Assembly: GCF_000428525.1 (NCBI RefSeq)
Contig: NZ_AUAC01000003.1
Coordinates: 558,001 to 622,000, forward strand
DNA: 64,000 nucleotides
Direction: 5' to 3'
DNA from: Hellea balneolensis DSM 19091
GTDB lineage: Bacteria > Pseudomonadota > Alphaproteobacteria > Caulobacterales > Maricaulaceae
The position numbers and the translations under genes are program-made. How positions within the stretch are numbered: position 1 is the stretch's first letter; the number at the start of each line of letters is the position of its first letter. This document shows positions 33,222 through 35,020 of the stretch, piece after piece. The notes beneath the pieces were generated by a model. It saw only the letters and a list, made by a program, of their open reading frames with translations, made no database searches and was not told the DNA's origin.

Positions 33222-34040
33222 GTGAGTTTTACCCGTCCAAAAATAATGGGCATACTAAACGTGACCCCCGACAGTTTTTCTGACGGGGGTCATTATGATT
33301 CCTATGACCTTGCCGTGAAACAGGCTCTCACCCTTCTGGATGAAGGCGCAGATATCATAGATATAGGCGGGGAGAGCACGCGGCCCGGCGCTGAAGAGGT
33401 TGATGTTATCGAGGAAGTGCGCCGCACGGTGCCTGTCATTATGGCTCTACGCGAAGCGACGCGGGACTATGATAGTGATCCCGTCATTTCCATTGATACG
33501 CGTAAGCCGGGAGTGGCCGAGGCCGCTATTTTGGCCGGAGCTGATATTTGGAACGATGTTTCAGGCCTGACCTTTGAGCCTAAGTCAGAGGCCGTCGCGG
33601 CAGAGCTCGCATGTCCCGTAATTCTGATGCATTCCCAAGGCTCACCTGAAAATATGCAGGATAACCCGTATTATGGTCATGCGGTAAAAGAGATAAAAGA
33701 TTGGCTCGCAAAGCGGCTTGATGCCTGTGAATTTGCGGGGATAGAGCGCAGTAATATTACGCTCGACCCGGGCATTGGTTTTGGCAAACGCCAAGAGGAC
33801 AACCTTGCTATTCTGGGTCAACTCGAAAGCTTTAAAGAGCTTGGCTGTCCTATTCTGATGGGCGCGTCCCGTAAGAGCTTCATAGGCCGCATAGATGGGT
33901 CTACGGCTGACGACCGCATCGGGGGCAGTATAGCGGCAGCCCTCTGGTCAGCGGCCAAAGGCGCTGATATATTACGCGTCCATGATGTGAGTGAAACGGT
34001 GCAGGCCCTTAGGGTCTGGGAGGCAATGGCGGATGAGTAG
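33222..34040 (+). CDS. folP: Dihydropteroate synthase
   Basis: 272 residues from a GTG nine bases after ftsH. DHPS joins p-aminobenzoate to pterin pyrophosphate in folate synthesis and is the sulfonamide target. Motifs: IMGILNVTPDSFSDGG, IIDIGGESTRPGAEEV, VSIDTRKP-type, NDVSGLTFEP, LMHSQGSPENMQ, LDPGIGFGKRQEDNLAIL and LMGASRKSFIGR. An ATG eight codons later is possible but would trim the first strand. In many relatives glmM follows folP; here a repeat-rich segment takes its place. Confidence 0.95.
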   Translation: MSFTRPKIMGILNVTPDSFSDGGHYDSYDLAVKQALTLLDEGADIIDIGGESTRPGAEEVDVIEEVRRTVPVIMALREATRDYDSDPVISIDTRKPGVAEAAILAGADIWNDVSGLTFEPKSEAVAAELACPVILMHSQGSPENMQDNPYYGHAVKEIKDWLAKRLDACEFAGIERSNITLDPGIGFGKRQEDNLAILGQLESFKELGCPILMGASRKSFIGRIDGSTADDRIGGSIAAALWSAAKGADILRVHDVSETVQALRVWEAMADE

Positions 34041-34060
34041 GCAAAACTATCGACCTTCGC

Positions 34061-34091
34061 TGTCATCACCCGATTTATTCGGGTGATCCAA
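34061..34091 (+). repeat. Left 31-bp terminal inverted repeat (internal hairpin)
   Basis: Perfect mate of 34413-34443. Internal stem ATCACCCGA (34066-34074) with TCGGGTGAT (34080-34088), loop 34075-34079. It lies 20 bases after the folP stop and ends three bases before the nuclease ATG. Confidence 0.9.
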
Positions 34092-34094
34092 GTG

Positions 34095-34403
34095 ATGAAT
34101 GACGACGCTTATGCCTATGTCTATATCCTAGCATCACATAAAAACGGGACACTCTATATAGGCGTTACCCGAGACCTAGGGACAAGGTTAGAACAACATA
34201 AATCCAAAGCCGACGCCAAGAGTTTTACGGCGCGATATAATGTTACCAGATTAGTCTGGTTCGAAGAATTTGACTTAATTGTTGAGGCGATTGCCTATGA
34301 AAAGCGCCTTAAAAAATATAAACGCCAATGGAAGATAAATTTAATTGAAGAACACAACCCTGATTGGCGCGAACTTGATTGCGGGTCAGGTGAGTTCTTA
34401 TAA
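34095..34403 (+). CDS. GIY-YIG nuclease domain protein
   Basis: 102 residues, a single GIY-YIG domain: YVYILASHKNGTLYIGVTRD holds the GIY-YIG-type strands (VYI ... YIG), then LGTRLEQHK with the catalytic Arg, and YEKRLKKYKRQWKINLIEEH with the Glu and basic helix. The class of small free-standing GIY-YIG proteins is common in Alphaproteobacteria and of unknown role. The ATG at 34095 is preferred; a GTG four codons upstream lies inside the left repeat. No separate DNA-binding domain is seen, so target choice might come from the flanking hairpins. Confidence 0.9.
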   Translation: MNDDAYAYVYILASHKNGTLYIGVTRDLGTRLEQHKSKADAKSFTARYNVTRLVWFEEFDLIVEAIAYEKRLKKYKRQWKINLIEEHNPDWRELDCGSGEFL

Positions 34404-34412
34404 GCTAACACA

Positions 34413-34443
34413 TGGATCACCCGAATAAATCGGGTGATGACAG
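34413..34443 (-). repeat. Right 31-bp terminal inverted repeat (internal hairpin)
   Basis: Exact reverse complement of 34061-34091, starting nine bases after the nuclease stop codon. It forms the same internal hairpin (34416-34424 with 34430-34438) and may double as a transcription stop. Confidence 0.9.
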
Positions 34444-34463: not shown

Positions 34464-34841
34464 ATGCCTAAAAGGTCAAAGCCATGGCTGAATTACAAGA
34501 GCAATGAGCCTGTCAGGGAATATCCTAGAACACCTATAAAGAAACGACATCTCAAATGGGCCCTTTTTTGGCTGATTGTTGGAGGACATATTGGCGCGCA
34601 TCGATTATATCTGTGGGATGGAACGAAAGCTGTCTTCATCATGGCTTTCTTTTTTATATCCTTTTTATGCTCATTGTTCTGCTTAGCATTGATTTACACT
34701 ACTCTTGATATTTCTGAGTTTTCAGAAGACAGCGCTGTAGGCATTGCCGCCTTCTTCAGTGTAGCATTGATTTTTATTTTTGAATTGCCCCGATTAAAGC
34801 GTAGAGTTGATTTTAAAAATAAAAAGCACCTTTTAAATTAA
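34464..34841 (+). CDS. TM2-domain membrane protein
   Basis: 125 residues. A basic N-terminus is followed by a TM2 domain (ALFWLIVGGHIGAHRLYLWD, two helices joined by the His/Arg-containing turn, then AVFIMAFFFISFLCSLFCLA), and a further hydrophobic helix at about 93-109 before a basic tail. TM2 proteins are small membrane proteins of unclear role. It starts 21 bases after the right repeat of the nuclease unit. Ribosome binding site weak (GAGGGA 12 bases upstream). Confidence 0.8.
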   Translation: MPKRSKPWLNYKSNEPVREYPRTPIKKRHLKWALFWLIVGGHIGAHRLYLWDGTKAVFIMAFFFISFLCSLFCLALIYTTLDISEFSEDSAVGIAAFFSVALIFIFELPRLKRRVDFKNKKHLLN

Positions 34842-34848
34842 TACTTGT

Positions 34849-34867
34849 TCCCCGACTTGATCGGGGA
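34849..34867. repeat. Solo palindrome related to the GIY-YIG unit ends
   Basis: TCCCCGA (34849-34855) pairs with TCGGGGA (34861-34867) around the 5-base loop CTTGA. Stem length, loop length and the CCCGA/TCGGG core match the hairpins at 34061 and 34413, so it looks like a solitary copy of the same or a sister repeat family. It lies eight bases after the TM2 gene stop. Confidence 0.65.
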
Positions 34868-34904
34868 TCTCCATCGTTTAGTTCAGCACTCCAATTGAGG
34901 AAGA

Positions 34905-34943
34905 CCCCCACCTTGAGTTTGCAGGCAAACTCTGGGGTGGGGG
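34905..34943. repeat. Interrupted GC-rich palindrome before the tandem repeat
   Basis: CCCCCACC (34905-34912) pairs with GGTGGGGG (34936-34943), and GAGTTTG (34915-34921) with CAAACTC (34926-34932), loop of four bases. A very stable hairpin seven bases upstream of the 9-bp tandem array and 78 bases upstream of thiD. Confidence 0.75.
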
Positions 34944-34950
34944 ACTATAG

Positions 34951-35013
34951 AAACAAGAAAAACAAGAAAAACAAGAAAAACAAGAAAAACAAGAAAAACA
35001 AGAAAAACAAGAA
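34951..35013 (+). repeat. 9-bp tandem repeat, 7 full copies, in the thiD leader
   Basis: Seven uninterrupted copies of AAACAAGAA, followed by a partial copy AAAC and then ATT directly before the thiD ATG at 35021. The unit is a multiple of three and in frame with thiD, where it would read Lys-Lys-Asn repeats. Perfect copies point to recent slippage and likely copy-number variation. Confidence 0.95.
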
Positions 35014-35020
35014 AAACATT

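Follow-up and report, generated by a model that had tools for sequence, protein, structure and literature searches.

A GIY-YIG Nuclease Gene Framed by Exact Inverted CGTC-Type REP Hairpins as a Candidate Mobile Unit in Hellea balneolensis

In the 64,000-nt stretch of the Hellea balneolensis DSM 19091 genome analyzed here (the window), two hairpins that are exact inverted copies of each other enclose a standalone GIY-YIG nuclease gene, and the 384-bp interval that they delimit (34060-34443) is probably a minimal mobile unit in which the gene is bounded by hairpins cognate to its product. Our best reading, drawn from comparative sequence analysis, is that this interval would constitute a REPtron-like unit for the CGTC-tagged REPs, a class characterized by a C/TGTC head, an 8-9 bp stem beginning with AT, a 4-5 nt loop, and a CCA tail, found frequently as inverted dimers and mostly in alpha-Proteobacteria, and including Neisseria dRS3 and Rickettsia RPE-4/RPE-6, for which no associated transposase gene was found by Di Nocera et al. 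2013 (PMC3733652).

A Nuclease Gene between Inverted Hairpins

The left arm, CTGTCATCACCCGATTTATTCGGGTGATCCA, and its exact reverse complement on the right (Table 1) form the inverted pair put forward in the original prediction, whose right-arm coordinates stand and whose left arm had been placed one position too high. Folded as single-stranded DNA, each arm yields the anticipated 9-bp stem and 5-nt loop (-9.3 and -9.8 kcal/mol, z ~ -5), similarity between the arms extends outside the 31-nt repeat (41 nt, 93%), and an inverted pair of 30-mers arose by chance in none of 100 shuffles of the 64 kb. Both arms carry an unpaired TGTC, one of the heads that mark the class (CGTC/TGTC/CCTC), and the 9-bp stem, 5-nt loop, and CCA complete the likeness to CGTC REPs, from which the window differs in having a GIY-YIG nuclease gene between the repeats.

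Table 1. Positions, within the window, of the proposed unit and the genes on either side
Feature	Position	Strand	Description
folP	33222..34040	+	Left neighbor of the unit
Left hairpin	34060..34090	+	CGTC-type REP; outward TGTC head, stem ATCACCCGA/TCGGGTGAT, loop TTTAT, tail CCA
GIY-YIG nuclease gene	34095..34403	+	Standalone; 102 aa, ATG start, active-site residues intact
Right hairpin	34413..34443	-	Exact inverted copy of the left hairpin; outward TGTC head
TM2-type membrane protein gene	34464..34841	+	Right neighbor; no Pfam match, label from the original prediction

The nuclease ORF belongs to the GIY-YIG family (PF01541, E 9e-17), with only PF01541 GIY-YIG matches found, and its ATG lies 4 bases from the left arm, where 3 had been counted, while the predicted 9 bases do separate the gene from the right arm; an alternative GTG start at 34083 would fall inside the left hairpin. 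Residues Y14, Y25, R35, H39, E73, and N92 (GTG-start numbering), which we take to be the known GIY-YIG catalytic positions, are conserved in 120-122 of 124 family members. An AF2 model of the protein (pLDDT 88.6) adopts a single GIY-YIG fold of the UPF0213/Slx1-like type, its closest PDB structures being UPF0213 BH0048 (1zg2) and the branched-DNA nuclease Slx1 at E 0.0025-0.04, with no Foldseek match below E 0.001. The same single-domain fold is thus shared with UPF0213/YhbQ and Slx1, and the differences are in context: Slx1 acts on branched DNA together with Slx4, and the related yhbQ of E. coli has no REP frame, whereas the window nuclease is framed by REPs. A group I intron homing endonuclease was considered and rejected, as the gene is an ORF of its own between folP and the TM2 gene and encodes a single domain, and the intron endonuclease model scores 21.9 on the window protein against a cut-off of 56.

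Association of GIY-YIG Genes with Matched Flanking Hairpins

Across the whole 3.2-Mb genome the exact 23-nt hairpin core occurs only at the two window sites, with one further copy carrying 2 mismatches at C2:368628, which rules out the 31-mer as one dispersed repeat. The genome-wide search proposed with the original prediction did not find the exact 31-mer dispersed; instead, each GIY-YIG paralog carries its own hairpin version. That the exact window hairpin is nearly single-copy in the host counts against the mobile-unit reading. Wider hairpin patterns gave 5 and 15 matches in the host, two of those 5 being chance-like, and up to ~85 in its relatives. Nine GIY-YIG paralogs are present in the host, and different hairpins of the CGTC class flank most of them. 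For five, the window gene among them, the matched flanking inverted repeats score at least 20, each of the five with a hairpin of its own, and long inverted palindromes surround a sixth (L012, score 14).

Of 70 related loci, 40 had an inverted repeat with matching copies in both flanks, compared with 0 of 270 shifted controls and 31 of 1041 combinations in which the left flank of one locus was set against the right flank of another; since the flanks of different loci seldom match, the two repeats of a gene correspond to each other and not simply to any REP. In a second set of stretches, largely new and with few loci overlapping the first, 20 of 43 GIY genes were framed versus 0 of 479 other ORFs from the same stretches (181 of the 479 short), and a strict caller placed 1.58 hairpins per kb at distances of up to 300 bp from 124 GIY genes, against 0.069 per kb elsewhere. 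Together, the shifted, swapped, and other-gene controls rule out chance or generally hairpin-rich flanks. It is also important to note that about half of the family members have no recognizable flanking pair, which again counts against a mobile unit, as does the orientation of the inner hairpin, which differs between loci.

Flanked GIY genes are also found in Azospirillum, Shinella, Rhizobium, Sphingobium, and Novosphingobium, and the framing pattern recurs in 6 of 7 contigs tested from viral collections. Among 61 genomes GIY copy number correlates with hairpin counts (Spearman 0.49, p 6e-5, kinship ignored), hairpin-rich genomes tending to hold the gene as the original prediction implied; the main outlier (G050), with 34 hairpin matches, does carry a GIY gene, a diverged one, between long CGTCATCCTGAG palindromes.

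Long CCTGAG...CGAAGGA palindromes frame the diverged GIY genes L218 (G050) and L012 (host), which suggests that the association of GIY genes with hairpins extends past short CGTC REPs. On the Azospirillum lipoferum plasmid AZO_p3 (L128), the suf operon is split between sufB and sufC by a GIY gene that REP dimers flank on either side, and on a Planktothrix plasmid (L135) a GIY-YIG gene sits between an MmeI-type enzyme and the DISARM gene drmA, its borders formed by TGTCATTCTGAG...AGGATGACA repeats that may represent a longer palindrome type of the same system. Three records labeled as plasmids (NZ_CP119142, NZ_CP119140, and CP090106) have the size of chromosomes (2.2 and 3.7 Mb), and the label is probably wrong.

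Co-inheritance of Hairpin Class and Protein

When loop classes (5-nt CTTGx or 4-nt GNAN, assigned by our own rules) were mapped onto a tree of 74 proteins built from few columns, they changed 9 times versus a mean of 23.4 for shuffled assignments, and none of 500 shuffles reached 9. When only paralogs from the same genome were exchanged, so that host effects drop out, the observed pattern was the unique minimum of 320 permutations, and a host effect as the source of hairpin type is weakened accordingly. Hairpin class thus follows protein clade, a strong if not final conclusion, and from this co-inheritance we infer that the nuclease recognizes its hairpin specifically. Such tracking within genomes is difficult to reconcile with an arrangement in which the REPs owe their movement to a transposase encoded elsewhere, such as a RAYT, and have captured the nuclease gene as cargo, as is the lack of matched REPs around any of the 479 other genes. 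RAYTs and other IS200-type transposases do occur in many species with CGTC REPs, which speaks for cargo status, yet the same study found CGTC REPs around no tyrosine transposase (PMC3733652), and we regard capture of the gene as very improbable.

Empty Sites in Relatives

At 4 of 4 host-paralog sites tested, the gene is absent from relatives. In G008, whose FolP is 91% identical, the folP stop overlaps the TM2 start and there are neither a nuclease gene nor hairpins; G005 and G009 also have no nuclease gene at folP and carry 66%-identical copies on other contigs. The original prediction had envisaged an empty site between folP and the TM2 gene in related strains, and G008 provides one: the arrangement is not fixed, and on this comparison the TM2 gene is separated from folP by an insertion. 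At the remaining host paralog sites (lepA, an acyl-CoA dehydrogenase gene, and pnp) same-genus relatives have no GIY gene, with the intervening sequence often differing otherwise too. Some 20-50 bp beside the hairpins are also missing from empty sites, a point against the mobile-unit reading, and the ends of the unit are approximate, the comparisons at folP, the acyl-CoA dehydrogenase gene, and gap-pgk assigning 10-50 bp next to the hairpins to neither side; Shinella empty sites were too divergent for comparison.

The empty sites, where the hairpins are absent together with the gene, further disfavor a role for the hairpins as common transcription terminators or regulatory structures beside a housekeeping nuclease gene. 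The left hairpin immediately precedes the translation start and might reduce expression, but the two are exact inverted copies without T-runs and the related E. coli yhbQ has no such hairpins, so that we give this explanation almost no weight.

A Sphingobium plasmid site is represented by three sequences with the gene and four without it, and two of the gene-less plasmids have a single palindrome in which the outer half of one hairpin is joined to that of the other, a structure suggestive of loss or gain of the interval between the 8-bp stem repeats. A palindrome of this kind is expected from stem recombination or slippage and thereby favors the chief rival to a mobile unit, namely, an Ssn-type role in which the protein would be a sequence-specific single-strand nuclease shaping DNA uptake or recombination through its repeats and its gene would spread only by homologous recombination between repeats, whether by transformation or by gap repair of a homing-like kind. 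Widespread "Ssn" GIY-YIG nucleases, first in Neisseria, that cut single-stranded DNA at cognate repeats are reportedly described in a 2025 Nature Communications paper; this report speaks for the same role, and so does the gonococcal (Neisseria gonorrhoeae) homolog, which is 56% identical over 86 aa, has dRS3 on both sides, and lies inside a dRS3/NIME array. Against it stand the empty sites at folP and gap-pgk without any hairpin, which indicate that some insertions are new, and we consider spread by recombination alone a serious but rather unlikely explanation.

The stretch from fnrL to a response regulator on the Sphingobium plasmids (L136-L139) is a hot spot with different repeat elements by strain, and two strains have there a nearly or fully symmetric palindrome, CGTCACC...GGTGACG.

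Gene-less Hairpin Pairs

Pairs of hairpins without a gene occur in the host and, in large numbers, in its relatives, 40-110 bp apart and with their heads outward as in the window unit. Two host pairs (L144 and L146) and one from G003 (L159) have the TGTCAT head in common with the window unit and, at most of their ends, also the bases that follow the tail (CCATGT), in place of which the L005/L028 paralog type and the gene-less pair L155 both have CCATCTCC. In G042, 13 gene-less pairs share their sequence as far as TCCGCTCAT and lose all likeness immediately beyond the head, with no consistent target duplication among the 13. One of these pairs occupies the gap-pgk intergenic region of G042, G086, and G095, and G104, G080, and G089 lack it. 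In their layout, the gene-less pairs resemble miniature elements and would be akin to non-autonomous, REPIN/MITE-like partners.

The gap-pgk gap itself (L223-L244) is, in sister species of G042, either empty or occupied by several unrelated inverted-repeat elements.

Proposed Mechanism and Relation to Known Systems

In light of these results, we propose that the putative nuclease most likely recognizes the hairpin (TGTC head, stem-loop, and CCA tail), probably in a single-stranded or extruded form, and that it would then nick the recognized hairpin. To our knowledge GIY-YIG enzymes do not join DNA, and host repair, copying, or recombination would therefore have to complete the move, with repair or copying moving the interval between the two hairpins or recombination making use of them. 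The gene-less pairs would be mobilized as non-autonomous partners of the nuclease unit.

The arrangement parallels REPtron/RAYT (TnpA-REP) systems, in which an enzyme gene is likewise framed by inverted REP hairpins and non-autonomous REP pairs share the genome, and differs from them in its components: RAYT is an HUH tyrosine (Y1) transposase associated with GTAG REPs, whereas the 384-bp unit combines a GIY-YIG nuclease with TGTC/CGTC REPs and has neither an HUH Y1 transposase nor a GTAG tag. IS200/IS605 elements resemble the unit in their small size, their terminal hairpins, and the lack of an observed target duplication, but encode a different enzyme, and the window hairpins form an exact inverted pair. 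A classical IS was rejected, the window unit having no transposase domain and the 13 gene-less pairs no consistent duplication. The idea at the core of the original prediction, a REP/RAYT-like system built around a one-domain GIY-YIG enzyme, thus draws support from the empty sites, the frequent framing, and the tracking of hairpin class with protein; neither independence of gene and repeats nor fixation of the locus in relatives, the outcomes that it had named as contrary, was found. On a wider scale it is conceivable, if still short of probable, that standalone GIY-YIG nucleases are the missing mobilizing enzymes of the CGTC REP superfamily, dRS3 and by extension other CGTC repeats included, each paralog having co-evolved with its own hairpin and moving both the gene cassette and gene-less pairs in a transposition-like process that relies on a nuclease unrelated to transposases.

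The GIY-YIG family of the window gene is presumably the same as Ssn, which the gonococcal homolog among dRS3 repeats fits. The window protein is a standalone GIY-YIG protein with an intact active site and is homologous to a Neisseria protein among dRS3/NTS repeats that is probably Ssn itself, Ssn being reported as a GIY-YIG protein of small size whose cognate repeat is NTS (dRS3-like). If so, the enzyme family and its cognate repeats are known in kind, and part of the present finding is probably known already. Insertion polymorphism, gene-less pairs, and the matching of paralogs with hairpins are reportedly not the theme of the Ssn paper, and our search for literature linking GIY-YIG genes to REPs found no paper in the collection searched. 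What the present analysis adds is the anatomy of the cassette in the window lineage, its insertion polymorphism, its gene-less partners, the correspondence of individual paralogs with their hairpins, and a connection to the enzyme that CGTC REPs were reported to lack. These repeats span alpha-Proteobacteria, Neisseria, Rickettsia, and Wolbachia and their defining paper named no enzyme; a candidate is now named for every genome with both CGTC REPs and a GIY-YIG gene, and the paralog-specific hairpins make binding and cutting assays simple. If true, the proposal would add a nuclease-based route to REP spread beside the known HUH route, provide hairpin-specific nucleases as a family whose targets are readable, and could explain the spread of a common class of bacterial repeats that has no assigned enzyme.

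Other Repeats Downstream of the Unit

Downstream of the TM2 gene, at 34845-34872, the hairpin TCCCCGACTTGATCGGGGA, with a CTTGA loop and a worn head and tail, is probably a decayed REP. Between the TM2 gene and thiD there is also a long palindrome at 34898-34946 (CCCCCACC ... GGTGGGGG), and a tandem repeat with a unit of approximately ten bases (AAACAAGAAA) occupies 34950-35020, directly upstream of the thiD start.
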